From Astropecten irregularis (lineage: Eukaryota > Echinodermata > Asteroidea > Paxillosida > Astropectinidae): DNA of 64,000 nucleotides. The DNA lies in contig OZ020244.1 of the NCBI GenBank assembly GCA_963971285.1, positions 10,044,001 to 10,108,000 on the forward strand, in the 5' to 3' direction. This document shows positions 26,580-60,641 of this stretch, piece after piece. Position 1 is the first letter of the stretch. Each line of letters begins with the position of its first letter. The translations under genes and the position numbers were made by a program. A model generated the notes under the pieces. It was given only the letters and a program-made list of their open reading frames with translations, did not search any database and was not told the DNA's origin.

Positions 26580-28487
26580 CTAGACATTGTGATTGTGGTA
26601 ACAACCACTAGGTGTTCGGGGTCTCATTTCGTAGTGGAACTGTTATATTAACGTATGTTGGAATATATGTGATCAATCATCCCTCATATGATGGCATATT
26701 GAAACACATGTACACATAAACTGCGTGACTGTACAAATACTTTGATCATGTTGATTGCTTATTTGTACTGTACATTGACTGACTGATTATCGGAAATGGC
26801 GTCACCTTTAAATATATATAATATTGTCTGGACAATAATTTTAAATATGATGTAAATATGTTGCAGTTTTATTTTGTTTGATTAAGACATATGGTTTAAA
26901 AGTGACCATATCTCAACGTAAAAAAACCCCTTAATTTTAACCCATAGATTTAGTTGCAGTGTTTATGGAACACATTGTCATTTGACAAAATGATGTTCAA
27001 TACTCCGCAACCTACATCGATAGCATTTCGATTAAGATTTGGTGCTGGTATTTAATGATGTATAATAAGATTTACGTGCAAATATCTATGACAAGATGTA
27101 AACAACTAAACAAAGTTTTAAAATAACGCAATTGGACATTACATGTACATGTACATGTATGTTCTGCACAGTGAATTATGTACGAATATATATAGTGTAT
27201 GGGAAATAGAGTCAATCGATCATCATTTTTTTTGTAAAAGACCATATTTTCACGTAACACATGTACACGTATGTGTACAAAGTTAACAGGCTAATGTGAG
27301 AAATATTTAAAAATTCATATAAAATCAAGAGATGCCGTAAATGTTCACTTTACATCTACGCTGTAGGAACTTTGTCTGGGCCTTTGTTTGGTTAAAATTC
27401 ACTGTTCAAAAGTGTATGAGGTGTATTAAACTCTTGTGTTGAGGCTATCATGTGTTTCCACTGAGACAATGTAATGATTCACTTTCCAATCACCTTGCAG
27501 TAACTGCCATCTGGTAGTAATCAGAGTCTCTTGTAATCAAATCAGCACTGAAGCAAGCAATTAGTTAGTGATACCTTAAGTGGTTGAGTAAACAAATTGA
27601 TTGAAAGATCTGATAAGAAGTTCTATACCATGGAGGTATACATGTATATACATGGCATCACCTTTAAATATATATAACATTGGTCTGGACAATAACTTCC
27701 GGTTAATTCATCACAAGTAACTGAACATTTACAGACGTCATTGAATGCATGCAATGTAAATACTTTGCAGTTTTCACTGATGTACGTCATGTAATAACTG
27801 AGTAAACAGTATTTGAATAATTAAGTCATTTTCCCTTTAAAAGAGCATAACTTCCGGTTGAATGACGTCACAATTTTTAAACTTCACATACATGTCAAGG
27901 TGCATTTGTGCTTCACACCCACGCAATTTAGCAGAAATTCATTGTTTACTTTCGGATTACGTAATCACTGTATATCTGTAACCAACCGTAGAGGGCGCTA
28001 TATAGCTCGCATGACGTCATCATTTATATTTTCTGAAATTCCAAGACCTTCTCTATCTTTTAGCCAAATATACTTTATGTGCCCAAATCCTTCCGTTTTC
28101 GAGTTATTTTGAGTCAAACTTCAACTTCCGGTAACACCGGAAGTGAAGGTCATTTGTACACAAGACTGAATATATTAATTGTTCAAATTTACGTGTTGAG
28201 TAACATATTCTAATATCAAAATCGTAGGTCATGCGGGTCTTAAGTTATGGAGCACTAAAGTTTTTCCTAAAAACGCGTGTAATTTGATACCCGATGACGT
28301 TATCATGACGTCAATCTTCTAAATACAACTTGGCATCATGACCGAAGTTCCCACCAAGTTTCAAGTCAATGTCTTGTAACTGTCATATAGAAGTCCTGCT
28401 GACAAGTTTGGGAAGAACAAAATGGAAAAAAAAAAGATTTCGAACAATAACAATAGGTGTTCGGCTTGAACCCGAACACCTAAAACA
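26580..28487 (-). mobile_element. R1 repeat, long form (copy A)
   Basis: Non-coding 1.9-kb unit. In element orientation (minus strand) it opens with the hairpin AGGTGTTCGG-loop-CCGAACACCT near 28480. It closes with CCGAACACCT, a GGTTGT/ACAACC hairpin and AATCACAATGTCTAG at 26580. It contains the ETS palindrome at 28124-28144 and CRE motifs near 28310. An insert of about 850 bp (about 26805-27655) is flanked by direct repeats of TCACCTTTAAATATATATAA and a following CTGGACAATAA. Confidence 0.8.
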
Positions 28488-29440
28488 CTAGACATTGTGG
28501 TTGTGGGAACAACCACTAGGTGTTCGGGGTCTCATTTCGTACTGGAACTGTTATGAGAATGTCTGTTGGAACGCATGTGTGGCATATATAAATACACTTA
28601 AACTGTGTGACTGAGCAAATACTGATCATGCTGAGTGCAGTGTATTCGTATATATACACTGACTTATAGCGTATAGAGAATGGTGTCACCTTTAAATAAC
28701 GTAAAATTGCCCGGACGATAACTTCCGGTTAGTTAACCACAAACAACTGAAAATAAATTTGCAGAAATCATCAAATGCGTACCATGTAAACATTTTGCAA
28801 TTTGCACCGATGTACGTCATGTAATTACCGAATAAACAGTATTTGAATAATTACATCATGTTTCCTTTAAAAATGCATAACTTCCGGTTGAATGACGTCA
28901 CAGATTTCAAACTTCACACATATGTCAAGGTGCATTAGTTCTTCACACTCACCAAATTTCTGGATTACGTAATCACTGTATATCTTTAATCCACCATAGA
29001 GGGCGCTATACAGCCCGTATGACGTCATCGTTTATATTTTCTAAAAGCTTAAGACCTACTCTGTCATTTACCCAGAGAGGTATTATGTGCCCAAATCCTT
29101 CCGTTTTCGAGTTATTTTGAGTCAAACTTCAACTTCCGGTAACACCGGAAGTGAAGGTCATTTGTACACAACACTGAATATATTAATTGTTGGGATTCAC
29201 GTGTTGAGTAACATATGTCAATATCAAAATCGTAGGTCATGTGGTTCTCAAGTTATAGAGCACCAAAGTTTTTCCTAAAAACGCGTGTAATTTGATACCC
29301 GATGACGTCATCATGACGTCAATCTTCTAAATACAACTTGGCATCATGACCGAAGTTCCCACCAAGTTTCAAGTCAATATCTTGTAACTGTCATATAGAA
29401 GTCGTGCTGACAAGTTTGGGAAGAAGAAAAATGAAAAAAA
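28488..29440 (-). mobile_element. R1 repeat, short form (copy B)
   Basis: A 953-bp unit lacking the 850-bp internal insert. Same 3' end (AATGTCTAG on the minus strand), ETS palindrome at 29132-29152 and tandem CRE near 29305. The 5' hairpin is missing: the unit ends in an A-rich stretch where the next copy begins. Confidence 0.8.
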
Positions 29441-31248
29441 CTAGACATTGTGATTGTAGTAACAACCACTAGGTGTTCGGGGTCTCATTTCGTAGTGGAA
29501 CTGTTATATAAACGTATGTTGGAATATATGAGATCAATCATCCCTCATATGATGGCATATTGAAACACATGTACACATAAACTGCGTGACTGTACAAATA
29601 CTTTGACCATGTTGATTGCTTATTTGTACATTGACTGACTGATTATAGGAAATGGCGTCACCTTTAAATATATATAATATTGTCTGGACAATAATATGAT
29701 GTAAATATGTTGCAGTTTTATTTTGTTTGATTAAGACATATGGTTTAAAAGTGACCATATCTCAACGTAAAAAAACCCTTAATTTTAGCCCATAGATTTA
29801 GTTGCAGTGTTTATGGAACACATTGTCTTTTGAGAAAATGATGTTCAATACTCCGCAACCTACGTCGATAGCATTTCGATTAAGATTTGGTGCTGGTATT
29901 TAATGATATATAATAAGATTTAGGTGCAAATATCTATGGCAAGATGTAAACAACTAAACAAAGTTTTGAGTCACGCAATTGGACATTACATGTACATGTA
30001 TATGTATGTTCTACACAGTGAATTAGGTACGTGTGGTGTATGGGAAATAGAGTCAATCGATCATCATATTTTTTGTAAAAGACCATATTTTCACGTAACA
30101 CATGTACAGGTATGTGTACAAAGTTAACAGAATTATGTGAGAAATATTTTAAAATTCATATAATCACAAGAGATGGCATAAATGTTCACTTCACATCTAC
30201 GCTGTAGGAACTTTGTATGGTTAAAATTGACTGTTTAAAAGTGTATGAGTTGTATTAAACTCCTGTGTTGAGGCTATCATGTGTTTCCACTGAGACAATG
30301 TAATGAAGCACATTCCAATCATCTTGCAGTGACTGCCATCTGGTACTAATCAGAGTCTCTTGTAATCACATCAGCACTGAAGCAAGCAATTAGTTAATGA
30401 TGCCTTAAGTGGTTGAGTAAACAAATTGTTTGAAAGATCTGATAAGAAGTTATATACCATGGAGTTATATATACATGGCATCACCTTTAAAAATATATAA
30501 CATTGTCTGGACAATAACTTCCAAATAATTCATCACAAGTAACTGAACATTTACAGACGTCATTGAATGCATACAATGTAAATACTTTGCAGTTTTCACT
30601 GATGTACGTCATGTAATTACTGGGTAAACAGTATTTGAATAATTAAGTAATTTTCCCTTTAAAAGAGCATAACTTCCGGTTGAATGACGTCACAAATTTT
30701 AAACTTCACATACATGTCAAAGTGTATTTGTGCTTAACACTCACGAAATTTGGCAGAAATCCATTGTCTACTTTTGGATTACGTAATCACTGTATATCTT
30801 TAACCAGCCGTAGAGGCCGCTATATAGCTCGCATGACGTCATGGTTTATATTTTCTGAAAGCCCAAGACCTTTTCTATCTTTTAGCTTAATACGTTTTAT
30901 GTGCCCAAATCCTTCCGTTTTAGAGTTATTTTGAGTCAAAATTCAACTTCCGGTAACACCGGAAGTGGAGGTCATTTGTACACAACATTGAATATATTAA
31001 TTGTTCAAATTCAGGTGGTGAGTAACATATGTCAATATCAAAATCATAGGTCATGTGGTTCTCAAGTTATAAAGCACCAAAGTTTTCCTAAAAACGCGTG
31101 TAATTTGATACCCGATGACGTCATCATGACGTCAATCTTCTAAATACAACTTGACATCATGACCAAAGTTCCCACCAAGTTTCATGTCAATATCTTGTAC
31201 CTGTGACCAAGAAGTCCTGCTGACAAGTTTGGGGAAAGAAAAAAAAAA

Positions 31249-31281
<33 letters not shown>

Positions 31282-31339
31282 CTCTAACAATAACAATAGG
31301 TGTTCGGCTTGAACCCCAACACCTAAAAAAAAAAAAAAA
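29441..31339 (-). mobile_element. R1 repeat, long form (copy C)
   Basis: Very close to copy A, including the internal insert and its flanking direct repeats. ETS palindrome at 30946-30966, tandem CRE at about 31118-31136, long A runs at 31240-31280 and the 5' hairpin near 31300-31325. Confidence 0.8.
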
Positions 31340-31752
31340 TAGACATGTGGTTGTGGGAACAACCACTAGGTGTTCTGGGTCGATGTCGTAGTGGACTTGT
31401 GACGCATCACGCATGTGATCAATCAAATATACTTATCATGCTGATTGCTCGTAAAGTAAACTGACTGCTGTTCATTATGTGTCACCTTTAATGTGCAAAA
31501 TTATCTTGATGATAATTTCCGGTTTGTTCATCACAAACAACTGAGTTTTAATTATAGAGGTTTTTCAATGCGTACGTTGTACATATTTTGCAATGTTCAT
31601 CGATGTGCTGTACCGTGATATGTAATTACCCAGTAAAAGCCATTTTCATAATTATACCTTTAAAAGAGCATAACTTCCGGCCGGATGAATGACGTCACCA
31701 CTTTCAAACTTCACAAACATGTCACGGTGAACTTGTGCTGCACAACTGAAAA
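31340..31752 (-). mobile_element. R1 repeat, truncated (copy D)
   Basis: Only the 3' part of a diverged copy: the GGTTGT/ACAACC hairpin, the CACCTTTAA segment, an ACTTCCGG motif and a CRE near 31690. Similarity fades at about 31750. Confidence 0.65.
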
Positions 31753-34149
31753 ATTATACTCACTTCATATCAACCTGCACTGGTTGATCGGTACATACAT
31801 TGGTACGGCATACTGAAAGTGAATTCTTTCCAGATTTTCCTATAACTTATAGGGTATTAAGATGGTAATGGTAGAAACATACTGTGAAATTGTTCTACGT
31901 AACCTAAGTTTGCTTCAGTGATACATGTACAGTTAGAGTCAAATGTCCCTAAAAAAATATACATTTTCATTCAGATGGTCTCCTTGATAATATATTTTTT
32001 GGAACAAACCAGGGATTTTCTCATTTCTGATTAGTTTTTGTACAAAATATGTTATTCATTGGACGTTATTCTTTCGTATAAAAGAATGTTTGTTTTTTTT
32101 TTGCACAAAAAAGGGGAAAAAACCCAATCCTGACCCATCCAATGATGTAATATCTTCAGTAGCAACACTACTAATAATCCATATAAGGGATTTCCATGAG
32201 ACTTACACCGTGCTGCATTTTATTTTCATGGATTTTTCCCCAATGTCATAGTTTACCCAGGAAATGAAATGGTACAATACATATAATTTGTCAACCTGCA
32301 TGTGACAAGGAGTTTCTTGATTAAAAATGAATGAAAGTCCAAGGAAGCCCTTAGCAGAGAAATTTCCACGGCTCATTGTTTGACACTAGTTTCAATTTCA
32401 CAATTTTTGCCCTCAAAAACTTAGTAATTTTTAATCATCAAAACAACGTCGGTGAAGAAAACTAGCTGAAGTTTTTATTAGTTGAAGGCATTGGGATTAA
32501 AATAATTACAAATGTGACAGTAAACCGAAACTGTGTCCATTTTGAGTGTGATTGTTTAGATCATATTTTGTTTAGTATAATGATATTAATATAAAGATAG
32601 AGGGATTAAATATATTTACTCGTTGTTAAAAGAATAAAAAGATTGATCAGGATGAAGTGAGGAGCTGCTGATCGAGTCATTTACAGCAGTGTTGAAACAA
32701 ATTGCCAAGTGTTTGTTGTCTCGATTCAGTCTTCTTCCTCAATCCTTGATGTTGGTAAACCCGAATTTCACAATACTGACAAACCCTGCGTCTGGCACGA
32801 GATACAAAACTGTACAATTTCAAGGGAATACAAACTCAGCTGAGCAAATTATGCCGTATCCTTCTTATTTATGTTTTGCCTGTTTAACCTTACAGACTGA
32901 GGAAACAAAAAAACTAAAATAACAGAAATAAATAATTTATACTACATGATACAGTGTGACACCATTTTTAATTCAATCTCAATTTCTGCTCTTTCACATG
33001 AACCTCACATAAACTCGAAACAAACTGTCATCTCATGTACGTCACTACCCCTCTCTTGCCGGGGTTTCATTTCACAAGTGTCCGGCATTGCCTTTTATTT
33101 TCATGTCTCTGGCTTTCATGGGATATATATAAGTAGTGAACATCGGGATTCCGACCATAAACTTTGATCTCCATCACTTTTGCAGGATGTAGACTTTGTT
33201 CTTTCCAAATAACCACGGTACCATGCAGACTTGTTCAGATTTTAATGTTATTAATATGAAGTTAGATTTACTTCAAACATATACACAGATTACTGTGTAT
33301 TTCAGTGGGTATTTTACAACATGATGTAGAAAACCACGGTTGCCGAATTATTGTACCATGGAATACCAGAATTTCATTGCATTTGGTCAAAAAACATGAA
33401 GCAAGGAGTTTTAAACGTGCTATATTATACTCCTGAGGCCTAGGCCTATAAACAAAAATCCACACTGTACACACTGTATGTACAATGTATGCATGCATGG
33501 CACAGTACATACACCTGTACACTGGCAATATAAAACACACGAGCCGGCCGTGGGAAAGTATAATTACACGTACACTACTATGCAGCTATCTCTGTGTGTT
33601 GCCCTTTTGACCCGGCCATTGCCATGGTAGCTGACCACAGGCGCAGCCTTGCACGATGTGCATGCTACAGCACGTACGTACATTGATAATACTGACTGAC
33701 ACGTGACAGGTTATTTGCAGTGATGTTCGATAGAAGAGAGGCCCAGGCCCTGACGGGACGTGAATTAGGCTGATATTTCCTACTTCACAAGCCAAGGTTT
33801 GTTTGTTGTTTTTTGTTAATCGTTATATTAGACTTTCACTGAGTCACATGATATAAAGTTGAATGTGGAACATTGTGTCACGGAAGTACTTGCCTGTTTG
33901 CAGTGCCAGTGGCAGTGTTCCCGTTTTGTGCCGTGTTTCTATCAATGTAGCCTAACGTTAGGCCCAGTAGGCAGTACGCTAGGCCTAATCTTCTCAACCA
34001 TGCATGACAAGAGATCGATATTGTTCTGGCATGCTATTGGTCTGTAGTTTGTTAGTAACGTCAGAGCCGCTCTATGGTCGAAGCAGGCCTGTTTGGAATT
34101 GATTAGATTGTGTTTGAATGAACTTTTGACATTGGTAAGAGGAAGTTAG
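31753..34149. other. Non-coding region
   Basis: A partial copy of repeat R3 lies at about 31795-31990 (CCTATAACTTATAGGGTATT and following). The rest contains only short frames without domains. TAGGCCTA-type motifs and TACATG repeats are frequent near 33430-33980. Confidence 0.45.
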
Positions 34150-35006: not shown

Positions 35007-38000
35007 ATGTCTTCATTGAACTTGAAAATTTTGAGTGATACATGCCAACGTGGTAAAACGTTGATGACATCAGCAATAAGTGACAAAGATGAAGTGATGG
35101 ATGTTCTGGTGTTAAATGATCTTGAGAGACTTTCATCCAAACTGGTGGCGAACAGATTTGTGAAACTCACAAACTATAGTTTACAAGATAGACCAAATAA
35201 AAGGGTAGTCAAAGTTACGGGAAAAACAAGGGTAAGTTAATGATTGTGTATTACTAATTAATGTACAATTTCATTTCACTTGTTGATGTATGTTGATTGC
35301 TGAATTCACTGCAGTGTATTTGTTCATTAGCTGTTCCGACATTCTCGGAACAGGTATTGTTTTTGTGCGCATTTTTCATTATTCCTTCGCACTTTTTGCT
35401 CCCATAGCTTTGTGCATTAAGTTTTGTCAGAATTCCCCTTGTGGCATATTATATCTTGTCTTAATTCTCTTATTTTTCTTACACCACTCTGTGTTTTATT
35501 CCAGATCCTTACTTTTTCATGAATATTCATAAGTAGTAACCTTCTTTTACAGTTCACCGCCCTGGGCCATGGCTTTCTGCACTAACTTTCACTATTTTGT
35601 TTATGAATAGAACCCTCCAACCTTCTGGCTTGGTCCTAAATTCCTATGGCTTTGTTTCTTTGTGCTTGCCTATCTTTTGTTGGTGTTCTTATGAATGAAG
35701 TGGGGTTTTGGGTGTAGATAAGGTATTACATGTAAGGCGTGTAGGCAGAGCTCTTGCTGTCCTTCAAAGAGGAAGGTTGTGCACTACCGATTGAATCTTA
35801 TAGAATGAAAGATAGAGAGACTTGAATTTTGCCAGATCACCAGAGCCGCGTTCTGCTGTTGTGCTGCCTTTTGCTAGGCTACTTCTTTGCTGAAGCAGAT
35901 ATTTCTGCAGCCTGCTAAATTTATTAGCAAGTTTTGATTGAAGCACAAATAGACCGACAGAGCGGCTAGATCTGCAATCAAGATCTTCAACAGCAAGAAA
36001 ACCGTAAGTAAATTTTTGTGTTCATTTTACATTTGTTAAGATGAATTAAGGAGCTTAAGTTTTGAATGTTAGAAACCCCACGTTGTGTTTGCGCTTTGAT
36101 TTTGATATTTATTGTCTGATTAATGACCTTGACTATACTTTAGCATTTTCCTTTCGATTTAAAAGAGATATGTTTAGCAATATAATTTAGTTACCTTGAG
36201 ATTATTTGTATGTATTTTGGCCAACTCCTTTAAACCATAGATGGTCCAATTTGGTATGCCGGTGATGTCCGCCACAGACAATCTCCGAGCTAGCTAGGCG
36301 ATAACCGAAGTCCACTTTGCAGCCAGTCGTAGAGAACGACAGAGTGCGCTCCTTTGTCACCCGGTAGAGTCGAGCCCTGACGTGCGACGCATGTGCCTCG
36401 CCAAGTGCAAGCCGTGAGCATGGACTGAGCTCGAGCCGATAACCAAACAGTTATTAGGCCTAAACGGTGGGAAATTTATTCAGTATGTGCTGAAACGATG
36501 TTTCACCCACTCGTACCTGTTTGAGGAATTTTAAGGAATGTGTATTTTAATGTAAGTGATGTGTTTTTTTCTTTGCACCTTGTTACACTTGTAACTTATA
36601 CTTAGTCATTGATGTGTTTTGCTGTATTTCAGGAGAAATTGACATGAGACGGGTAGATTTAAGGTAAACCCTGTTTGTATTGAAATCTTTTGAAAAGTTG
36701 TGACAAATACATGTATACTTGTCTTGATGCCAGAGTAGTCTTTTGAGGGGTTAGCGAACTTTTGCGAGGTAAATTCGTAGTATTGAATTCCGATTCTGAG
36801 TATAGTTTTGATGATTTACGGGAGAAACCCAAGTTTGATGTGTCACTGACTAGAAATCGCTGGCAACCTAAATTAAACCTCATTTAAATTTGTGGGATCC
36901 TAATTATTGCTGTAGCCGTTGTTATTATTACCTTTTTTGCTGTCATAATTATTATTACTAATGATCATGCAACTCGTGCCCTTTTTGGGTCTTGACAGAG
37001 GAAACACTTATTTACAAATCCTCTTTTGCCCTTTAACAATCTAATTTGTACATAAATAAGTTTGTGATATGATTAAATTAAACTGTTTATTTTGTGATAA
37101 GAATTTTTCTGTTTGGACATTGTAATCATTCAGTAGTCTGCATGTTGTTTCATCCTACTTTCCTGGTCACAGAATTAGGCTCTTAGGGTAACTGTGACAA
37201 GTTTGTTTATTGCTTATCTCTTCTTAGCTTCTTCTGATCAGCTTAGATGAAGTATCATTTGAAAGCTTATAAGCTAACGGTTGATAAAAATCATGATTTA
37301 AAAAAATAAAATGGATTTATTTGTATTTAAATCGTTTTTTTTTATATTTAAATTAAATTCTTAATTGTTTTTATGTAATAACATCTTACTGTCATAACAT
37401 TTTGCTTAAAAAAAACACATAAATGCTGCCAAATTGCATCTTGTCGCTAGGGCATTGTAGGTCATTAAAATGTAGCCAAAAAACCAAAGCAACAAAAAAC
37501 AGAAAATTACTGACAGATCACTACAGGCATGCTGTACTGTATTCTTGTTGATGGGATGTTTAAGACCACATAAAGATGTTTCATGGCTTGCAGTTGTACG
37601 TACCAGTGGTCCATTTGCATCTCATGTGTATAGAGCTAATAATGACAGTATTAATGTGCAAAGTCAAGATGTAGTGATGTACACAAACAAAAGTTAATTC
37701 TGTGCAGTACATCTATGTATTAATATAATGTGTATACATTACAAGTAATGCTGTACACATAATTTGCTTCAGAATACTGCCTAATTTTTCATGCATACAT
37801 ATACAGTATGTGTGTACATACTGTACATGCATGCGTATTTTGTACAGTAAAAACTAATGTAAAAACACAACATAAACTGTTTTAAGACACCCTGTTGTAG
37901 TGGAAAAATTAAGCCAAAAGTTAATGGAAGTATTCTTTCAGTAAGATATTCTGTTTAAAAAAAAATCAAGAAATAATGAAAGAAATCATTATTGATTTTT

Positions 38001-39000
38001 TTGAGCGATTTATTTGATTTTTTCCCATTTATTTAAATCAATGATTTAAATCGAGTGATTTAAATCAAACAATCCTGTAAGCTAAGGATCATTCTGGCAC
38101 CGAGTTGGAAAAAAATCTTAATTAATTAGCCACGTGACAGTCATTTAAATATTTAATTAGAAAATTTTGTTAGCAGTATATCTCGAGAAGGGTAAGTGCT
38201 ACGGTAATGATTCTTTTTGCGAAAGCTTTGTTATATCTTTTAGTTTGTGGATGCTGCCACAATATTTACGTCATCATGACGTCATCAAAAAAGCTGATTT
38301 TTTGGTTATTGGTATATCTCGATAACAGTATAAGTGCTATAGTAATGATTCTTGTTACAAAAGCTTTGTTATATCATGTAGTTGTGCATGCTGTGCCACA
38401 AAATTTACAATGATGTCATCATGACATCATCAAAAAAGCTGATTTTTGGTTAGCAGTATATCTCGAGAACGGTAAGTGGTACAGTAATGATTCTTTTTGC
38501 AAAAACTTTGTAATTTCATGTGGTTGTGCAAGCTGTCACAAAATTTTCCATGTCATCATGATGTCATCAAAAAGGATGATTTTTTGTTTGCAGCATATCT
38601 CAAGAATGACAAATGCTGTGATAATGATTGTTTATAAAAGCTTTGTTACATCATGTACATGCATGAGTGTGCTGCCATGAAATTGACCGTGACGTCACCA
38701 TGACGTCATCAGAGTTTATAAAGCTGATTAAATAAGTCGGAACAGCTTCGTGTTCGTCTATGAACAATTAATTGTCTAGTTTGATTTGCCATTGTCATTT
38801 GTATGTTGTGTTGTTGTTCAATTGCATTCTGTATTGTGATGATTTCTCCAAATGTATTGTTTCAGATCTTTGTTACATCAGAGTTTGATGTAGACGAAAG
38901 AGTAATTGATGAGTTTAATAATGCTCCATCGATAAGAGTGGCAGATGCCATATCTTCTTCACCAATTCGGAGATTCTCTATTCGAGGGCGTGCTGTGAAT
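35007..39000 (+). CDS. Unrecognised spliced gene, two coding exons (partial)
   Basis: Exon 1 is 35007-35231, preceded by a pyrimidine-rich acceptor ending TTTTAG directly before the ATG and followed by GTAAGT. Exon 2 is 38866-39000, with acceptor TTGTTTCAG and donor GTAAAT. Both are in phase 0 and give 120 codons: MSSLNLKILSDTCQRGKTLM, later VLVLNDLERLSSKLVANRFV, and IFVTSEFDVDERVIDEFNNA in exon 2, ending in RFSIRGRAVN. The pattern of a beta-rich first part followed by a second strand-rich part vaguely recalls OB-fold single-strand DNA-binding proteins, but I do not recognise the family. A non-coding exon upstream is implied, and further exons must lie downstream, perhaps beyond the assembly gap. 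The intron of 3.6 kb holds an R2 element. Confidence 0.6.
35329..38780 (+). mobile_element. R2 repeat interrupted by insertions, inside an intron
   Basis: Opens with the degenerate 5' hairpin CTGTTCCGACATTCTCGGAA and closes with GTCGGAACAG, a decayed GTGTTCGT hairpin and TTGTCTAGTTT. The segment up to about 35420 and the segment from about 37195 join to the R2 consensus; 35421-37195 is foreign and contains no recognised gene. A hAT-like element interrupts the second part. Four internal monomers of about 140 bp follow at 38160-38720. Confidence 0.7.
37278..38077. mobile_element. hAT-like non-autonomous element within R2
   Basis: 800 bp flanked by the 8-bp duplication TAAGCTAA (37270-37277 and 38078-38085), which is unique R2 sequence before insertion. 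Ends resemble each other in inverse orientation (GGTTGATAAAAATCATGATT against GATTTAAATCAAACAATCC). AT-rich and non-coding. Confidence 0.7.
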
Positions 39001-40902: not shown

Positions 40903-41102
40903 NNNNNNNNNNNNNNNNNNNNNNNNNNNNNNNNNNNNNNNNNNNNNNNNNNNNNNNNNNNNNNNNNNNNNNNNNNNNNNNNNNNNNNNNNNNNNNNNNN
41001 NNNNNNNNNNNNNNNNNNNNNNNNNNNNNNNNNNNNNNNNNNNNNNNNNNNNNNNNNNNNNNNNNNNNNNNNNNNNNNNNNNNNNNNNNNNNNNNNNNNN
41101 NN
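40903..41102. other. Assembly gap (200 N)
   Basis: A run of exactly 200 undetermined bases, probably a placeholder of arbitrary length. The flank on the right begins inside an R1 copy. Confidence 0.99.
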
Positions 41103-47257: not shown

Positions 47258-47337
47258 TATTATTAGCTGTTCCGACATTTCGGATGTCGGAACAGGTTTA
47301 GTTTTTGCTTAGATTTTTATTATTATTAGCTGTTCCG

Positions 47338-48198
47338 ACATTTCCGATGTCGGAACAGGTATTGTTTTCGTACGGATTTTTCATTATTCCTTCGCTCTTT
47401 TTGCTCCCATAGCTTTGTGCACAAAGTTTGTTTATTGTTTATCTCTCCTTAGCTTCTTCTGATCAGCTGAAATGAGGTATCATATGAAAGCTCATAAGCT
47501 AAGGAACATTCCGGAACGGAGGTGTTAAAATTCTTAATTAATTAGGCACGTGACAGCTCATTTGCATATTTAATTAGTCAATTTTGTTAGCAGCGTATCT
47601 CGAGAACCACAAGGGCTACGAAAATGATTCTTTTTCCAAAAGCTTTGTTACATCCTGTAGTTGTGCATGCTGCCACGAAATTTACCGTGACGTAATCATG
47701 ACGTCATCAAAAATGCTGATTTTATTATTAGCAGCATATCTCGAGAACGATAAGTGCTACGGTAATGATTCTTTTTGTAAAAGCTTTGTTACATCATGTA
47801 GTTGTGCATGCTGCCCCGAAATTTACAGTGACGTCATCATGACGTCATTTAAAAAAAGGTAATGTTTGGTTAGCAGTATATCTCGAGAACGGTGAGTGCT
47901 ACGGTATTGGTTCTTTTTTTAAAAGCTTTGTTAGACCCTGTAGATTTGCATGCTGTTGTGAAATTAACTGTGACGTCATTATGACGTCATCAAAAGGCAT
48001 AATTTTTGTTTGCAGCATATCTTGAGAATGACAAAAGCTATTGTAATGATTCTTTTCGCAAAAGCTTTGTTAGAAACTTTAGATGCACGCTGCTTTGTAA
48101 ATGACCGTGACGTCATCATGACGTCATCGGAGCTTATAAAGCTGATCAAATAAGTCGGAACAGCTCCGTGTTCGTCCACGAACACTTAAATGTCTAGT
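47338..48198 (+). mobile_element. R2 repeat (copy e), best-preserved
   Basis: Full-length example of about 860 bp. Internal monomer landmarks at 47589, 47730, 47872 and 48011 give a period of about 141 bp. Each monomer has CTCGAG or CTTGAG, AATGATTCTTTTT, AAAAGCTTTGTTA and the tandem CRE. A solitary 5' unit precedes it at 47265-47337. Confidence 0.82.
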
Positions 48199-48990
48199 TA
48201 TTATTATTATTCTTTATCACCCTCTAAGCTTGTTAACAGCTTATCTCTTCTTAGCTTCTTCTGATCAGCTTAGATGAGGTATCATATGAAAGCTTATAAG
48301 CTAAGGATCATACTGGCGCTGAGTTGTAAAAATTCCTCATTAATTAGGCACGTGACAGCTCATTTGCATATTTAATTAGTCAATTTTGTTAGCAGCATAT
48401 CTTGAGAACGACAAAGGCTATGAATATGATTCTTTTTGCAAAGGCTTAGTAGCATAATGTAGTTGTGCATGCTGCTAAGAAATTTACCGTGACGTCATCA
48501 TGACGTCATCAAAAATGATGATTTTATTATTAGCAGCATATCTCGAGAACGGTAAGTGCTACGGCAATGATTCTTTTTGTAAAAGCTTTGTTACATCATG
48601 TAGTTGTGCATGCTGCCCCTTAATTTACAGTGACGTCATCATGACGTCATCAAAAAAGGAAATTTTTGGTTTATATCAGTATATCTCGAGAACGGTAAGT
48701 GCTACGGTATTGGTTCTTTTTGTAAAAGCTTTGTTAGACCCTGTAGATTTGCATGCTGTTGTGAAATTAACTGTGACGTCATTATGACGTCATCAAAAGG
48801 CATAATTTATGATTGCAGCATATCTTGAGAATGACAAAAGCTATGGTAATGATTCTTTTCACAAAAGCTTTGTTAGAAACTGCAGATGCATTCTGCTTTG
48901 TAAATGACCATGACGTCATCGGAGCTTATAAGTCTGATCAAATAAGTCGGAACAGCTCCGTGTTCGTCCACGAACACTTAAATGTCTAGT
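48199..48990 (+). mobile_element. R2 repeat (copy f), no 5' hairpin
   Basis: Begins at ATTATTATTATTCTTTATC inside the 5' region, runs through four monomers and ends in the normal 3' terminus. Closely related to copy e and head-to-tail with it. Confidence 0.8.
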
Positions 48991-50020
48991 TATTATTATT
49001 ATTCTTTATCACCCTCTAAGCTTGTTAACAGCTTATCTCTTCTTAGCTTCTCCTGATCAGCTTAGATGAGGTATCATATGAAAGCTTATAAGCTAAGGAT
49101 CATACTGGCACTGAGTTGTAAAAATTCCTCATTAATTAAGCACGTGACAGCTCATTTAAATATTTAATTAGTCAATTTTGTTAGCAGCGTATCTCGAGAA
49201 CCACAAATGCTACGAAAATAATTCTTTTTCCAAAAGCTTTGCTATGTCCTGTAGTTGTGCATGCTTCCACGAAAATGACCGCGACATCATCATGACGTCA
49301 TAAAATTGCCCATTTTTAAGCCCTATGTCAGAGCAATAGAGCATAGGCCTGTGTGTAGAGGTGTGTGTGTAGTGTGTACACGTATATGTACTAGCTGTAT
49401 TACTGTATACAGTTATACCAATTTGCAGCTGGGATTGTTCATCTCAAGTGATCAGAGTCTGAGGAATGTGCTGTTATGTAAGAGGTAGACCAGCAAGTGC
49501 ATGACCATGCACTGTTGTCACGGTAACAATTGATGTGTTAGTATTCAAGCGCATAAAAGCATACATAGTACAGGCTCACTTTCATGGCCCCAGTTTACAT
49601 GCTTATTTCTTTCGATTAATTAGTCAGTTCATGGTTAGTTTGATATTATGGAAATGACCATGACGTCATCATGACATCATCAAAAAGGCTGATTTTTTGT
49701 TAACAGCATATCTCAAGGACAAATGCTATGGTAATGATTCTTTTTGTAAAATTTTTGTTACATCATGCACTTGAGTATGCTGCCATGAATTGGACTGTGA
49801 CGTCATGATGATGTCATCAAAAAGGATGATTTGTTTGTTTACAGCATATCTCGAGAATGACTAATGGTATCGTAATGATTCTTTTTTGTAAAGCTTCGTT
49901 ACATTACATGCTGCCATGAAATTGACCGTGACGTCATTATGACGTCCTCGAAGTTTATAAATCTGATCAAATAAGTCGAAACAGCTCCGTGTTCGTCCAC
50001 GAACACTTAAATGTCTAGTT
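48991..50020 (+). mobile_element. R2 repeat (copy g) with an insertion
   Basis: Same start and end as copy f. About 49311-49640 is unrelated to R2 (includes a GTGTGTGT tract) and splits the monomers. Confidence 0.75.
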
Positions 50021-50320
50021 AAGAATATTTTTCAACTCAGTGCCAGAATAATTGTAAACTTATAAGCTTTCATATGAGACCTCATCTAAGCCGATCAGAA
50101 GAAGATAAGAAGAGATAAACAATAAACAAAGTATAATTATAATAATACAAATCAGAACAAAAACAAAACCTGTTCCGACATCCGAAATGTCGGAACAGCT
50201 AATAAAAATCTAAGCTAAAACTAAACCATCCGAAATGTCGGAACAGTAATCAGAACAAAAACAAAACTTGTTCCGACATCGGCAATGTCGGAACAGCTAA
50301 TAAAAATATAAGCTAATTAT
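50021..50320 (-). mobile_element. R2 5' ends, inverted
   Basis: Inverted R2 5' region with three hairpin units (GACATCCGAAATGTC and GACATCGGCAATGTC types), one of them lacking its outer arm. The BEL/Pao relic begins directly after it. Confidence 0.72.
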
Positions 50321-50324
50321 TAAA

Positions 50325-53300
50325 ACAGCAAATTATTGCATTTGTTGAACTTGTCTAAGGTTGAGTTAGAAGTGTTCTGTGGAAATCCTTTACACTACCA
50401 TCAATTTGTTAGTGCGTTTGATGTTAATGTAGACAAAATCTGTGAAGATGGTGATCTAAAATTATCTAGATTGATGCAGTATACGGAAGGTAGCGCTAAA
50501 GAAGCTATTAGAGGTTGTCTATTGATTGGAGGTAGTAGTGGAAATGCTAACGCACGTTCTATCCTAGATAAACGCTTTGGTGATCCACATTTAGTGACTG
50601 AACGCGTCGTAGGAGAGTTAAAGTCTAGTAAGCAAGTAAGATCTCCTCAATATATATTAGACAATTAGCCGATGATATGCAGAATGCGCTGCCTGTACTC
50701 TCTAAATTGAACACATTGGATGAAGTTAACCCACAAGCAATGATACTTCAAATAATTAGTAGATTTCCTAACTATGTTCAGTTAAGGTGGAGAAAACTTG
50801 CTCTCAAGTCTAAGGATGATGATGGTCATTACCCTTCATTTAGGAAATTGGCTGAAATTGTAGCACTAATTGCCAGTGAAGTGAACGATCCTGTTTACGG
50901 CACTGCGTTTCCTAAACGCTCAGATAAGTTTAAGGGTGAACAAAGGGGATCCTCTGCAAGCCTTTCTGCATCATTATCTCAATCCAAACCTGAGAATTGA
51001 AAGCAACCGTCTAACAAGAAAACAGGGTCTTTGAAATATAAGTCATACGCTAAGCCTGAACCTCCATATGTACTTTGTTGTCAGTTACATCGTTTATGGC
51101 ATTGTGAACAGTTTAAACGTATGAGCCCTAAGAAAAGATTGTATGTTGTTATTCATCATAAATTGTGCCATAATTGCCTTCTAGCATCTCACGTCACTGA
51201 AAATTGTGGTAAACGTTCTGTATGTAGTGTTCAGGGTTGTGGTCAAACACATACAATGTACATTCACTGTAATAAGGATACGTCACCAGACATTAAAGTG
51301 TCTAACGCTAGTTATTTCGATGATAGAGCTACACACATGCATATAGTTCAGGTAACGGTTAATGGTGGATGTAAGGCTTTTACCATGCTTGATAGTGGAT
51401 CGAGTAATTCATTCTGTTCTAGAGCCCCTTATTAGACGATTGGGAATTACGGGTAAATTGCATGAATGTAAACTCAGTAATTTGAATAAGTCGGGCACAC
51501 AGATTTCCGAGATTGTCAATTTAATTATTTCCTCTGAATCGGGTGAAACATTGAAATAAGCAGCAGTGTATGAAGTTGATGAAATACCAGCTAAGAACGC
51601 ACCCATCGACCTAGCAGCTCACGCCTACCTCGGTGGGATAGGCCCTATGCCAGCTTATGAACGCCATGATGTAGTAGTTGATTTGCTCATAGGTCAAGAT
51701 AACGCCGAGGCACTCATACCGATAGAAGTTAGACGAGGAAGCTCAGGGCAGCCTTTTGCTGTGCGTACCTTATTGGGGTGGTGCCTTTAATGAACGGTCC
51801 CCTATGAATGTGCCTAGTCGTAGAGTTGTATCTAATTTTATTTCGGCCACATCTATCAATGATGACGTTTCTCGTTTATGGAAGCTAGAAAATGATGGAA
51901 TTGAGCTTGTATGTATCCTGGTCACAACATGATAAATCAGTGATAGCTTTGTGGGATCAACAACATAGGAAGGTTGGTAGTCATTACGAACTCCCAATTC
52001 CATGGAGTGATAGATCAGAACCTCTCCCTAATAATTTCATGGTAGCCAAATCTAGGTTAGACTCCTTGCATAAAACGCTCAAGAGAAATGACCTGTATGA
52101 TAGATACAACGCCGAGATAGTTAAACTTGAAGACAAAGGATATGCAGAAGAGGTTCCTGAAAGCGAGTTAATCAATGTAGATAGAATTTGGTATCTTCCT
52201 CATCACGCTGTAATTACAGAAAAGAAACCAGGCAAATTGAGAGTAGTCTTTGATTGTGCCAGCAAGTTTAAGGGAAAGTCCTTGAACGAACGCTGTTTGA
52301 TGTTAATGTAGACAAAATCTGTGAAGATGGTGATCTAAAATTATCTAGATTGATGCAGTATACGGAAGGTAGCGCTAAAGAAGCTATTAGAGGTTGTCTA
52401 TTGATTGGAGGTAGTAGTGGTTATGCTAACGCACGTTCTATCCTAGATAAACGCTTTGGTGATCCACATTTAGTGACTGAACGCGTCGTAGGAGAGTTAA
52501 AGTCTAGTAAGCAAGTAAGATCTCCTCAATATATATTAGACAATTAGCCGATGATATGCAGAATGCGCTGCCTGTACTCTCTAAATTGAACACATTGGAT
52601 GAAGTTAACCCACAAGCAATGATAATTCAAATAATTAGTAGATTTCCTAACTATGTTCAGTTAAGGTGGAGAAAAGGTTACAGAAAAGAAACCAGGCAAA
52701 TTGAGAGTAGTCTTTGATTGTGCCAGCAAGTTTAAGGGAAAGTCCTTGAACGAACGCTGCTTACAGGGTCCCGATATGATTAATAAACTTTTGCCAGTCC
52801 TCCTGCGGTTTCGGCAACACAGTATAGCTATTCAGGCAGACATAGAAGTGATGTACAATCAAGTTAGAATTCCGACTAGGGATCGTGATGCATTAAGATT
52901 CCTTTGGTATGCTGATGATGAATTGAAATATTATAGAATGACATCTCACTTATTTGGGGGAGTGTGGTGTGCATCAAGCTCTGCATATGCCTTGCAGAAA
53001 ACTGTTTATGACATTCCTACTGCTCACCCTCTGGTCAAGAATGCTTTGAAAAGATCATTTTATGTAGATGATTTACTCTGCTCGGTTGCCACAGAAACTG
53101 AAGCTGAAACCATAATCCGTGAAACTCCCCAAACCCTGTCAAATGGCGGTTTTAATCTAACCAAGTTTGTTGTTAATAATGATCAGTTGCTTAGAATAAT
53201 ACCTGAGGAATGTAGAGCCAAGGAGTTTTGTGAGTTGCGTTCTCAATCTGAAAGTAAGGCCTTAGGAATTAGATGGAAAGTTTCATCAGATGAATTCTTT

Positions 53301-53865
53301 TTCACAGCAGGACAAGAAGTAAGATGCTTAGTATACTATCGTCCATTTTTGACCCTCTTGGTTTATTAGGTCCCCTGGTGCTTGCTGGGAAATTACTTTT
53401 CCAGGGAGCGACAGCCCGTAAACTGTCATGGGATGAAGCCATCCCCTTAGATTTAGAGAGAGAATGGAATATTTGGATTTAATCTTTGCATATCTCTGTT
53501 GGTCACTTGAGGTTTCCCCGATACATTAAGCCACATGATTTTGACGATGCTGCATTAGAACTTCATCATTTTTTAGACGCCAGCTCGCAAGGTTATGGCT
53601 GTTGTACCTATGTGCGGTGTGTTAATAAGTTTGGTGAAATCCATGTAGAATTGGTCATGAGTAAGAACAAGGTAGCTCCGCTAAAAGTGTGTACTATACC
53701 ACGTTTAGAATTGCAGGCCGCTGTTTTGGCTTTCAAGTCTGACACGTTGTTGAAACGAGAATTGGATCTAGATTTCGCCCGCACATATTTCTGGACAGAT
53801 TCTGAAATTGTCTTAAAGTACATCAGAAATGACCGAGTTCCCTTTGGAGGTTTTCGGTAATTTTT
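50325..53865 (+). pseudogene. BEL/Pao retrotransposon relic (gag, protease, RT, RNase H)
   Basis: Gag: EVFCGNPLHYHQFVSAFD and ILDKRFGDPHLVTERVV (DUF1759 type), then Cys/His knuckles (CHNCLLASHVTENC, CSVQGCGQTHTMYIHC). Protease: MLDSGSSNSFCS, active-site Asp at 51391-51393. [22 protein letters not shown] to [14 protein letters not shown] and YVDD at 53061-53072. RNase H: HHFLDASSQGYG, TIPRLELQAAV and WTDSE. The order and motifs are those of BEL/Pao. Breaks: a frameshift near 50660, TGA at 50998, a frameshift near 51425, TAA at 51557, a frameshift near 51785, a 380-bp gag duplication inside RT, a frameshift near 53330 and TAA near 53480. The integrase is absent, the sequence ends soon after WTDSE, and no LTR is visible at either end. 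Confidence 0.88.
52213..52762 (+). repeat. Gag segment duplicated into RT, flanked by an RT repeat
   Basis: 52296-52675 copies gag 50417-50796 (380 bp, three differences noticed). It is followed at about 52680-52762 by a repeat of the 82 RT bases that precede it (52213-52295). The RT frame therefore restarts upstream after the insert. Junctions share short matches such as AGAAAA and TTTG. Confidence 0.92.
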
Positions 53866-56256: not shown

Positions 56257-57363
56257 CCCGTCAAGCACCTTTTTTAAAGCGTGGATGATCCATGCACTTC
56301 CTATTGTATATTAACCAGGGCAAGATCAACCAATAAACAAGTTTGTTTGCATTCAGCTTGGATATAACATAACCCCTATGGTCAATGCAGCACACAATGC
56401 GCACAGTCCATTTTGTTCTTGCTATGATACTTAATGTATTTTGTCGTTGGAAAATGAGAGTACTTTTTCAAAATGATTGAATGGGGCATCCTTTGCATAA
56501 TTATTGTAACTGACAAAATGTACATTTCACTTTACAGGGAGCTAAAGTTTGGGTGAAACATTGCTGCACCTACCTCTTTACTCTTGGATCATGATTGTTT
56601 AGACCTGATCCTCATATAGATCGGATATATTTCTATCTCCATGCTCATACACCCGTTATGCTTGTATTCTCATTTTTGTAATTGATCCACAACTTTTCGA
56701 GAACAAATTGACCGTAGGAGAACGGTACTACGAATCTCTTACGTTAACTCTGCATGATTTAAAGGCACTATACTTTTGTGACATACTGAAACAGACTGAA
56801 TCTTCACAGATTTACCTATAACTAAATGATGGTGATGGTAGAAACATACTGTTAAAATTTTTTGCCTGAAATGCTGACTTATCCAGAGTAAAACCAATGA
56901 CCAAGAAGCATTTTTGATCTCTTAAAGATACAAGATAAAATGGTGAACAGATTTTTTTTCAAATACTGTGGTCGTTTTTCACTGTTTTCTAAAAAACGGT
57001 GGGCACCGTCGTCGACTGTTACTGTATCTTCCTTGATCAATGAATCTGCATTTTGGACAAAAACCAAAGTATGATAAATTTGTTGTGATTTAATTCACCA
57101 TCAGAATGATTCTGCCGCTGATCTTGCGAAATGCACCTTGTATTTGTAAGTGCGTAACGAACGTTACTAGGAGTCGAGAACAATTCAAGACATAATACAC
57201 GTGCATCATAAGTTATTTCTAGGGTTAATTCTAAAATTTACTTAAAATCATTTGTTGGAGAATGTTACATTGCGATTGAAGTAACTGATGGAATTGCTAC
57301 GTGAAACATTAAAAACCGATTGTTAAAATACACCTTTTAGGCCTTATACCTAAACAAGAAAGA
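56257..57363. other. Non-coding region with MITE fragments
   Basis: Fold-back MITE relative at about 56540-56705 (GTGAAACATTGCTGCACCTA and TTGATCCACAACTTTTCGAG) and an R3 copy with eroded ends at 56758-57078. A segment at 57230-57350 resembles the non-R2 part of copy d at about 46480-46600. Confidence 0.5.
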
Positions 57364-58348
57364 ACTAGATATTTAAGTGTTCGTGGACGAAAACAGAGCT
57401 GTTCCGACTTATTTGATCAGCTTTATAAGCCATGATGACGTCATGATGACGTCACAGTTAATTTGATAGCAGCAAGCACATCTACAGGATCTAACAACCA
57501 ATTTTACATAAAGAACCATTACCGTAGCACTTACCGTTCTCGAGATATGCTGCTTATAATAAAATCAGCTTTTTTGATGACGTCATGATGACGTCACAGT
57601 AAATTTCGTGGCAGCATGGACTCTAACTACATGATGTAACTAAGCTTTTACAAAAAGAGTCATTACCGTAGCACCTACCGTTCTCAAGACATGCTGCGAA
57701 TAATTAAATCAGCTTTTTTGATGACGTCACAGTAAATTTCGTGGCAGCATGGATAACTACATGATGTAACTAAGCTTTTGCAAAAAGAATCATATTCATA
57801 GCCTTAGTCGTTCTCGAGATATGCTGGTCACAAAAATGACTAATTAAACACGCAAATGAGCTGTCACGTGCCTAATTAATTAAGCATTTTTATAACTCAG
57901 TGTCAGAATGATTCTTAGCTTATAAGCTTTCATGAGAAACTTCATCTAAGCTAGTTAGAAGATAAGAAAAGATAAGCAATAATTGAATCATTACCGTGGC
58001 ACATGTCATTTTGGAGATATATGTTAATACAAAACAGCCTTTTCATGACGTCATGATGACGTCACGACCAATTTAATGACAGCATGCACATCTTCATGAT
58101 GTAAGTAAGCTTTTGCAAAAAGAATCATTTTCGTAGCATTTGTCGTTTTTCAGATATGCTGGCCACAAAATTTACTAATTAAATATGCAAATGAGTTGTC
58201 ACGTGCTTAATTAATGAAGAATTTTTACAACACAGTGCCATAATGATCCTTAGGTGATAAGCTTTCAGAGGATACTTCATCTAAGCTGATCAGAAGAAGC
58301 TTAGAAGAGATAAGTTGTAAACAACCTTAAAAGGTGATACAGTATAAT
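57364..58348 (-). mobile_element. R2 repeat, inverted (copy i)
   Basis: Minus orientation: 3' terminus AACTAGATATTTAAGTGTTC at 57364, then monomers with inverted tandem CRE (GATGACGTCATGATGACGTC) and two R2 5'-flank segments (GTCACGTGCCTAATTAATTA). It appears to be two truncated copies fused. Confidence 0.72.
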
Positions 58349-59723
58349 AACTAGACATTTAAGTGTTCGTGGACGAACACGGAGCTGTTCCGACTTATTT
58401 GATCAGCATTATCAGCTCTGATGACGTCATGATGACGTCACAATCATTTCCAATGCAGCATGCATTTCTAGATGATCTAACGAAGCTTTTGCGAAAGGAA
58501 TCATTATATACTATAGCTTTGGTCATTCTCGAGATATGCTGCAAATATAAATTATACCTTTTGATGACATCATAATGACGTAACAGTTAATTTCACAGCA
58601 GCATACATATCAACAGTATCTAACAAAGCTTTTACAAAAAGATCCATCACCGTAGCACTTACCGTTCTCGAGATATAATGCTAATCTTAAAATTAACTTC
58701 TTTGATGACGTCATGATGACGTCACAGTAAATTTTCTGGCAAAATGCAGAACTAAATGGTGTAACTAAGCTTTCGCAAAAACAATCATATTCATAGCCTT
58801 TGTCGTTCTCGAGATATGCCGGTTACAAAAACAACTAATTAACTATGCAAATGAGCTGGCACGTGGCTAATTAATGAAGGATTTTTGTAATAGTGTGAGA
58901 ATGATTCTTAGGGGCCGTCCATAAAGTACGTACGCACGAAATGCCGACTTTTTTGACCCCCCCTCCCCCTCTGTACGCATGGCGTACGCAGTGGTCCCAA
59001 CCCCCCTCCCCCCCTGTACGCATACGCATTCCACATTAGGTTTTTCACTTCTCGTGGTCCCTTGCTTTAGCATCATTAAAATGTCACCGTAATCCGGGCC
59101 GTTGCCGTTATTGGGACGTCACTTTCAAATCCTGAAATGAATGACTAAAGTTTAACAGGTTTTTATACATTTACAGATGGATTTTACTATTTTTTACCAT
59201 GTTGAGTAAGAAAAAAAAGGAAAAACAAAACAATCCCGGTGCTTTTTTCACGTTTTTTACCTCTCTTTTCGCGCGATAATGCTATGCAAATTTTTCGTTT
59301 GCGTACGGTACGCATTGGCCTTAACCCCCCCTCCCCCCCTGTACGCATGGCGTACGCATCAGTAACAACCCCCCCTCCCCCCCCCCCCCCCTTCGTGCGT
59401 ACGTACTTTATGGATGGCCCCTTAGCTTATATAAGCTTTCCTACGATACCTCATCTAAGTTATTAATCACAAGAAGATAAGAAAAGATAAGCAATAAGAA
59501 TCATTACCGTGGCGCATGTCGTATTCGAGATATATGCTTCTTAAAAACGACCTTTTGATGACATCATGATGACGGCACGAACAATTTAATCGCAGCATGC
59601 ACATCTACATGATGTAACTAAGCTTTTGCAAAAAGAACCATATGATACCTCATCTAAGCTGATCAGAAGAAGCTAAGAAGAGATAAGCAATAAACAAACT
59701 TTGGGTGATAAAGTATAATAATA
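58349..59723 (-). mobile_element. R2 repeat, inverted (copy j), split by a MITE
   Basis: 3' terminus at 58349 (AACTAGACATTTAAGTGTTC, then the GTGTTCGT/ACGAACAC hairpin). Several monomers follow. The Harbinger-like MITE at 58911-59421 interrupts the R2 sequence CTTAGCTTATAAGC. Confidence 0.75.
58911..59421. mobile_element. Harbinger-like MITE, 3-bp TTA duplication
   Basis: 511 bp with inverted ends GGGGCCGTCCATAAAGTACG and the matching inverse, near-perfect over about 30 bp. Flanked by TTA on both sides (58908-58910 and 59422-59424), and R2 continues on both sides. Both halves carry C7TC5-like runs, G-rich on the minus strand, beside GTACGCATGGCGTACGC palindromes. Confidence 0.82.
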
Positions 59724-60641
59724 ATTAGACATTTTAGTGTTCGTGGACGAACACGGAGCTGTTCCGACTTATTTAATCAGCTTTATAAGTTCTGATAACG
59801 TCACGCTCATTTTCAAAGCAGCATGCTATTTAGAGGAACTAACAAAGCTTTTGCAAAAAGAATCATTACTATAGCATTTGTCGTTCTCGAGATATGCTGC
59901 AAACAAAAATTCAGCCTTTTTGATGACGTCATCATGACGTCACGGTCAATTTCATGGCAGCATACTTTTGTACATGACGTAACAAACCTTTTACAAAAGG
60001 AATCATTACTATAGCATTTGTTGTTCTCGAGATATGGTGCAAACCAAAAATCAGCCTTTTTGATGACGTCACGGTCAATTTTATGGCAGTATACTCTTGT
60101 ACATGGCGTATCAAAGCTTTTAGAAAAAGAATCATCACCTTAGCATTTGTCGTTCTCAAGATACACTGTAAATAATACAACAGCCTTTTTGAATTTTCGT
60201 AGCAGCAAGGACATCTACAAAATGTAACAAAACTTTTACAAAAAGGAATAATTAGCTTTTTGACGACGTCACGCTGACGTCATTTTCGTGACAGCATGTA
60301 AAACTACATGATATAACAAAGCGTTTGCATAAAGAATCATGTCCGTAGCATTTGTCGTTCTCGAGATATGCTGCGAACAAGATTTCCTAATTAAATGTTC
60401 AAATGACTGTCACGTGGCTAATCAATTAATAATTTGTACAACGCGGTGCCAGAATGATCCTTAGCTTATAAGCTTTCATAGGATACCTCATCTAAGCTGA
60501 TCAGAAGAAGCTGAGAAGAGATAAACAATAAACAAACTTACTGCACAAAGCTATGAGAGCAAAAAGTTCGAAGGAATAATAATAATGTAAAATCCGAACG
60601 AAAACAATACCTGTTCCGACATCGGCAATGTCGGAACAGCT
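59724..60641 (-). mobile_element. R2 repeat, inverted (copy k)
   Basis: Complete from 3' terminus at 59724 to the 5' hairpin at about 60611-60640 (CTGTTCCGACAT-CGGCA-ATGTCGGAACAG, as read on plus). Contains five monomers. Confidence 0.8.

Follow-up and report, generated by a model that had tools for sequence, protein, structure and literature searches.

As described in the relevant parts of Thomas et al. (2014, PMC4067079), the Helentron-associated interspersed elements (HINEs) of Metaseiulus and Culex, DINE-1 of Drosophila and their Helentrons carry a palindromic subterminal inverted repeat (subTIR) at the 5' end and an inverse subTIR with a hairpin near the 3' end, target TT with no larger duplication, and have a partner with Rep, helicase and endonuclease domains. 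Excerpts on Cg_HINE of Crassostrea gigas (PMC7492417) depict a flank with a subTIR and its inverse, a microsatellite, central repeats of ~140-180 bp, a 3' subTIR with a palindrome and a preference for TT, and those of Helitron2 (Bao and Jurka 2013, PMC3627910) asymmetric terminal inverted repeats with hairpins at both ends. Here we analysed a window of 64,000 nucleotides, the whole stretch under study, from the sea star Astropecten irregularis (contig OZ020244.1, positions 10,044,001 to 10,108,000), which holds two repeat families, R1 and R2, resembling these systems in their ends; R2, with its 141-bp monomers, comes close to the plan of Cg_HINE. Judged from their sequences, R1 and R2 are almost certainly HINEs, that is, non-autonomous relatives of two Helentron lineages resident in the A. 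irregularis genome. They are further families of an already known class of elements, and the noteworthy part is their load of a paired motif.

In element orientation, R1 begins behind a TT with AGGTGTTCGG, a loop and CCGAACACCT, and finishes with CCGAACACCT, a hairpin and CAATGTCTAG in front of another TT; the corresponding parts of R2, likewise between TT and TT, are AGCTGTTCCGAC, a loop and GTCGGAACAG at the 5' end and GTCGGAACAG, a hairpin and TTAAATGTCTAG at the 3' end. The asymmetric architecture that a preliminary description of this DNA had ascribed to both families, with a 5' hairpin, an inverse subTIR, a 3' hairpin of its own and CTAG, was thus recovered in each of them. Exact AGGTGTTCGG occurs at 12 window sites (0.07 expected) and AGCTGTTCCGAC, with at most one mismatch, at 25 (0.12 expected); AATGTCTAGTT, also with at most one mismatch, occurs at 14 (shuffles: mean 2.4, largest 7), all 14 being 3' ends of R1 (5) or R2 (9). 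Compared with shuffles, the 5' hairpins lie far beyond chance (z -6.7 for R1, -7.7 for R2), and the 3' hairpins are convincing when taken alone (z -4.0 and -2.8) and weaker within longer pieces (z -0.9 in another R1 copy, -2.2 in R2). A TT precedes all 13 listed 5' starts of the window, a list that omits two damaged ones near 41490 and 50249, as well as 18 of 18 R1 and 33 of 33 R2 starts outside it. The listed 3' ends comprise the 14 AATGTCTAGTT sites together with two more, one from R1 (43508, shortened) and one R1-like (31341, decayed); of these 16, 14 show CTAG and 14 have TT as the next bases. R1 comes in two forms, of 1.0 kb and 1.9 kb, and R2 contains an internal array of ~141-bp monomers (35 units aligned). 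The bodies had been called unrelated. They do share a paired motif, TGACGTCA; once it is masked, no significant similarity between them was found (75 of 1000 shuffles score as high), and a homology through a TATCTCGAGAACCACA-like box on the same strand, suggestive at face value, was not significant in that comparison. The copies in the window are:

26578-28481, minus strand: R1, long form, 1904 bp, with its 5' hairpin at 28455-28481 and its 3' end at 26578
28486-29438, minus strand: R1, short form, headless (without the 5' hairpin)
29439-31324, minus strand: R1, long form, 1886 bp
31325-31840, minus strand: decayed R1-like copy, 3' part
35329-38781, plus strand: R2 with foreign inserts
39674-40596, plus strand: R2, diverged, both ends present
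41103-41493, minus strand: R1 5' part, head to head with another R1 5' end; an assembly gap (N) at 40903-41102 cuts the copy
41519-42545, plus strand: R1, short form, inserted into another R1's 5' flank, with ATTGTT^ATTG as the empty site
42546-43508, plus strand: R1 body, headless, with its 3' end at an inner CTAG and no 3' hairpin
43509-45256, plus strand: R1, long form, headless
45270-45925, minus strand: outer R2, inner part, interrupted by the nest at 45926-50020
45926-50020, plus strand: R2 nest with five 5' starts (45926, 45983, 46037, 47265, 47328) and four 3' ends (47258, 48199, 48991, 50020)
50021-50298, minus strand: outer R2, 5' part with stacked 5' hairpins
57363-60641, minus strand: R2 cluster with one 5' start (60641) and three 3' ends (59723, 58349, 57363)

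Several of these copies are rearranged or interrupted. At 41467-41512, two R1 5' hairpins are fused head to head, the outermost bases missing from each, and the R1 3' end at 43497-43510, which has no hairpin, may reflect either a deletion between two CTAG copies or the use of the inner site as terminator. One R2 copy contains a MITE-like insert (MITE, miniature inverted-repeat transposable element) at 58918-59410, whose long inverted ends (GGGGCC...) contain many G runs and whose flanks are TAAG-like. A separate repeat interrupts another R2 copy at 46401-46782, and part of it (87% over 148 nt) recurs at 57218-57364, bordering the R2 end at 57363.

Insertions of one copy into another provide paralogous empty sites, and 11 joins were tested. 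When the nest 45926-50020 is left out, the older minus-strand R2 is restored with no gap at the junction, as seen in 11 spanning matches, six of which, those printed, are 84-91% identical. Leaving out 41519-42545 likewise restores an R1 5' flank (five spanning matches, one of them merely aligning to the next hairpin). Both clean insertions add AG...CTAG and one TT, so that insertion at T^T and a duplication of TT look alike; nothing is duplicated beyond that one ambiguous TT. Thomas et al. describe the same uncertainty for flanking Ts (PMC4067079).

Partners with the same ends were found in the 475.7 Mb of genome searched. Helitron_like_N gave 149 scored matches (150 of 154 candidates scored), none of them within the 64-kb window, and 94 of the 149 fall within open frames 3,000 aa or longer (counted from the list), so that transposition is testable. 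The three Rep pieces printed share the motif YFYRVEFQQRGSPHTH, which fits the Rep motif 2 signature of Helentrons (S between G and P, F/Y-x-R before) as given in the pertinent section of Thomas et al. (PMC4067079). The partners measure ~19-20 kb, and their open reading frame (ORF) runs antisense to the terminal polarity, which is why a search for ends in the ORF direction failed. The unit with Rep at C1:8719440 (contig 1) has R2-type ends at 8709549 (5') and 8729216 (3'); that with Rep at C1:8632086 begins at 8622399, where five R2-type hairpins are stacked, and ends at 8641604; and that with Rep at C1:4876751 has two R1-type hairpins (4866368, 4866435) and an R1-type end, of the variant CTCTAG, near 4885276. 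The tails of the two R2-type units are 93% alike over 1641 nt, their R2-like part comprising only about the last 300-365 nt (95% and 93% over 297 and 299 nt), and the genome-wide list of exact ends places no R2-type 3' end inside C1:8709549-8729216 or C1:8622399-8641604. At four more places predicted from the array period, the four short stretches each held a 3' end, 1 to ~490 bases off. Of the 11 Rep matches on contig 1 below 8.75 Mb, six are accompanied, at a distance of 8.4-9.4 kb and on the strand expected, by a 3' end of R1, R2 or a third lineage described below. Locus L055 has PIF1, its 2B domain and an Exo_endo_phos endonuclease in a single frame, ~4.7 kb away from a Rep match; at L056, DUF6570 and OTU are situated upstream of Rep, and L021 contains Helitron_like_N; the Rep and the PIF1/endonuclease domains were observed on different Helentron copies. 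Rep matches ~20 kb apart in the same orientation on C11, C14, C15, C20 and C30 form tandem clusters of whole Helentrons. Beside Helentron ends at L059 (336-891) and L060 (3165-3816, both in ORF orientation) lie tandem units of ~129 bp with a ACTTCCGG...CCGGAAGT hairpin, and R1 has a similar palindrome, CTTCCGGTGTTACCGGAAG. Pattern scans of viral contigs, one genome-contig pattern and a related-locus search with two Helentron pieces gave no result.

Copy numbers refer to exact matches only, each with a reversed-pattern control. Genome-wide, R1 has 911 exact 3' ends (control 5) and R2 has 892 (control 3), and AATGTCTAGTT alone occurs 2,443 times (control 356). A third lineage with the same terminal architecture is represented by 1,502 exact 3' ends (control 0); the long R1 form and the DNA beside third-lineage ends have a stretch of ~310-370 nt in common, ~70% alike.

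The hallmarks of Helentrons and HINEs are accordingly present together: a palindromic 5' subTIR, its inverse near the 3' end, a 3' hairpin, a TT target without larger duplication, and partners that bear the same ends and, on different copies, encode Rep, PIF1 and a C-terminal endonuclease. The preliminary description had proposed non-autonomous Helitron2/Helentron families and named full-length copies across the genome, an autonomous Rep-helicase element with the same ends and empty sites showing insertion between two T without target duplication as the checks; the outcome favours the proposal, which holds, with many copies genome-wide, Rep-helicase-endonuclease elements sharing the ends, and two empty sites at which no more than an ambiguous TT is duplicated. 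Canonical Helitron1 (5' TC, 3' CTRR, A/T insertion, no 5' hairpin) was rejected, the elements starting with AG behind TT, with a 5' hairpin, and targeting TT, although the 3' CTAG does fit CTRR. A Helitron2 without endonuclease matches the ends, yet the partners carry an endonuclease, which places them with the Helentrons inside the Helitron2-like group. In the portions of Bao and Jurka that describe it, Helitron2 lacks the endonuclease and targets TTTT followed by T or C, whereas the target here is TT and the end CTAG; its members Helitron-2_CRe and Helitron-1_DR resemble the present partners in having RepHel in the opposite orientation (PMC3627910). Being short, non-coding, numerous and equipped with inverted repeats, R1 and R2 might also be taken for MITE-like derivatives of a cut-and-paste transposon, with symmetric terminal repeats and a target duplication of fixed length. 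Their inverted repeats are asymmetric, however, there is no duplication beyond TT, and the partners that share their ends encode Rep, PIF1 and endonuclease domains and so already contradict such an origin; we regard it as extremely improbable.

Some observations weigh against the assignment to Helentron-mobilized HINEs. Clean empty sites came from just 2 of the 11 joins (d and e), and by their nature they cannot separate a TT duplication from a T^T insertion; joins b and c aligned with gaps around an ATT run, f lies in a poly-T run, g matched its own flank only, and for a, h, i, j and k no genuine empty site emerged. The Helentron units were read at both ends and in part of their interiors, a fourth Helentron (C1:7607099) showed no 5' end in the stretch fetched, and 5 of the 11 Rep matches on contig 1 below 8.75 Mb have no 3' end of the three lineages where one would be expected. 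If R1 and R2 are HINEs, a Helentron protein would act in trans on their ends. By analogy with the family, Rep would nick at the element end, the PIF1 helicase would peel off one strand, the 3' subTIR, hairpin and CTAG would signal termination, and the strand or circle would be joined into a TT target. New copies would often land in the T-rich, ATT or CTT stretch just inside each 5' hairpin, and such landings would yield nests with stacked 5' ends and headless bodies, which might then be moved or duplicated as composites.

The arrangement of copies bears on this last step. Of the 16 window 3' ends, 11 run into R1 or R2 DNA: seven into the T-rich 5' flank of a headless copy, three into a 5' end past a short T-rich spacer and one into a copy on the opposite strand. 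The other five do not enter R1 or R2 DNA, one of them (57363/57365) entering the repeat that also interrupts R2 at 46401-46782. The 5' flanks make up 4.1% of TT sites (binomial 1.7e-6 for 7 of 16 ends there), and the excess is weaker for R1 and R2 DNA as a whole (11 of 16 ends against 35%, binomial 0.006), in both cases with copies that are not independent. Twelve further loci (L009-L020) form a biased sample, picked for closely spaced 3' ends; of the 54 ends there, 30 lead into a headless flank, 20 lead into a 5' end and 4 do neither. Among neighbouring pairs, 5' ends are stacked <200 bp apart in 8 of 14 for R1 and 16 of 25 for R2. Near the beginning of contig 1 (L001-L008, C1:0.16-0.75 Mb), one old R2-like insertion has been multiplied, to at least 8 copies, as part of a larger repeat; these loci were at one stage considered another family, which was rejected.

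Head-to-tail copies had been read in the preliminary description as a sign of rolling-circle spread, and the arrays might indeed be rolling-circle concatemers formed when the terminator is bypassed, or tandem duplications of a unit, with little self-insertion. Tandem Helitron arrays of bat and silkworm are ascribed to end bypass in a passage of Thomas et al. (PMC4067079), the combination of a single 5' start with three 3' ends in the cluster 57363-60641 is not expected from plain nesting, and L009 holds a regular alternating array, with exact CTAG-TT-AG at some junctions elsewhere. Against concatemers stand the seven of 16 window 3' ends whose junction with the 5' flank of a headless copy falls at a run that is T-rich or consists of ATT, the intact older copies that reappear when the nests 45926-50020 and 41519-42545 are omitted, and the fact that adjacent bodies within a cluster can be of different subtypes. 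Concatemers or unit duplications as the principal source appear rather unlikely to us. Self-insertion into the 5' T-rich flank explains the head-to-tail copies better than concatemers alone, with tandem or composite spread coming later: the clusters look to be chiefly self-insertions into the element's own landing strip, and tandem or composite amplification on top is needed for the array in L009 and the one-start, three-end cluster. As the nests suggest, Helentron clusters and stacked 5' ends would both arise from elements that target their own T-rich landing strip. FoHeli of Fusarium oxysporum, which is Helitron2-like, is similar in its self-insertion, in several 5' termini per 3' terminus and in a duplicated 5' piece of <200 bp, and its authors, in the section on these termini, explain several 5' termini with one 3' terminus by self-insertion; the account there gives few examples, whereas here such insertions are frequent in the loci read and the element's own T-rich 5' flank is the landing place (PMC5148889).

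The motif shared by the two bodies, TGACGTCA, is the full cAMP-response element (CRE), known in animals as a binding site of CREB/ATF factors. All but one of its 70 window sites lie in R1, an R1-like copy or R2 (0.84 sites expected in all). Exact TGACGTCA-N3-TGACGTCA pairs number 20 in the window, with none at spacers 0-2 or 4-7. Genome-wide, where spacings of 3 and of 4-14 were compared, 6,901 places carry the pair at spacing 3 (reversed control 5) and 439 carry it at spacings 4-14 taken together (control 38), some of these being triples; the fetched loci, mostly chosen for R1 and R2, hold together with the window 136 pairs at spacing 3 and one each at 0, 7 and 14. The first 52 pairs listed on contig 1 were not hand-picked; 41 of them have a 3' end from one of the three lineages no more than 2.5 kb away, compared with 3.5% of random positions, and these 41 fall in 12 of 15 clusters; another cluster (4866620) sits just inside the 5' end of the R1-type Helentron that begins at 4866368. 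In the third lineage, two pairs lie within ~550 nt of the 5' end at L058. A 2-kb stretch 5' of one locus contains no pair. Aligned R2 units carry at least one exact TGACGTCA in 27 of 35 cases and an exact pair in 14 of 35.

Whether the pairs matter to the elements can be weighed from their conservation. We consider it somewhat probable that they are functionless, having been captured early and multiplied with the elements, as copy number alone would multiply any motif. The motif block of the R2 monomer has a mean of 0.85 against 0.73 overall and ranks 18th of 114 windows, behind a motif-free block; its candidacy as the best-conserved block, based on second rank in a local alignment cut near the motif, was dropped after this full comparison. 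A neutral passenger is harder to reconcile with the 3-bp spacing kept by R1, R2 and the third lineage, the R1 and R2 bodies being otherwise not alignable, with the 6,901 pairs at spacing 3 against 439 at 4-14 together, and with the retention of CpGs in 50 of 70 cells inside the motif versus 43 of 105 outside, cells that are not independent. Taken by itself, the conservation of the motif mildly favours constraint. A more speculative reading, which we regard as possible though doubtful, is that Helentrons and HINEs have spread several thousand exact CRE pairs whose 11-bp centre spacing, about one helical turn, could let two basic leucine zipper (bZIP) dimers share one face of the DNA; the elements may use CREB/ATF/CREM-type factors for their own expression, for instance in the germ line, thereby sowing candidate cAMP-responsive sites. 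If the pairs do bind such factors, a rolling-circle element would have sown a composite transcription-factor site of fixed spacing. A precedent is the supply of dosage-compensation-complex binding sites by DINE-1-like elements in Drosophila miranda, mentioned in part of PMC4067079. No report of paired CREs in Helentrons was found in the open-access library searched.

The paired TGACGTCA motifs and the dense self-nesting also set R1 and R2 apart from the systems in the consulted parts of Thomas et al., where, in addition, an ORF opposed to the terminal polarity is mentioned for one family, Helentron-Da-40A.1, compared with both partners here (PMC4067079). HINEs are often orphans: in the relevant section of the oyster study, none of 10 Repbase Helentrons could be linked to the 11 HINEs and Cg_HINE could not be assigned an autonomous partner, whereas the partners here were found in the same genome (PMC7492417). 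Two HINE families are thereby tied to partners in one genome.

A decayed Helentron had likewise been reported from the window. It is present, and is more than a neighbour of R1 and R2, its array matching that of a Helentron with R2-type ends:

20594-22279, plus strand: decayed Helentron coding remnant with PIF1 helicase, 2B domain and Exo_endo_phos endonuclease
23382-24889, plus strand: 71-bp tandem array downstream of the remnant, ~93% alike to the array of the Helentron at C1:8719440

The two arrays are 93% identical over 860 nt, and because they share the 71-bp unit the window Helentron is probably a relic of the R2-type lineage. The PIF1 piece of the remnant has 77% identity to one protein and 53-60% to proteins of Argopecten, Scophthalmus, Ptychodera and Amphiura. 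A 3' end proposed near 24757 (CATGTCTAGT) was discarded as a short, chance-level match; the ORF being antisense, that side is the 5' side.

Other features of the window lie outside these families. A row of long ORFs at 306-8307 includes an integrase-like ORF (2803-3717) with a weak rve match below the curated cut-off, and from the ORF list alone we take the row to resemble a Polinton/Maverick-type element. A minus-strand row of ORFs at 14182-16130, one with a DUF4218 match, is probably a transposase remnant. Finally, a 300-bp direct repeat, 99% identical (50416-50715 and 52295-52594), lies next to a weak reverse-transcriptase match (52665-53369) in DNA that resembles a retroelement, and another RVT_1 match is located at 62122-63297.

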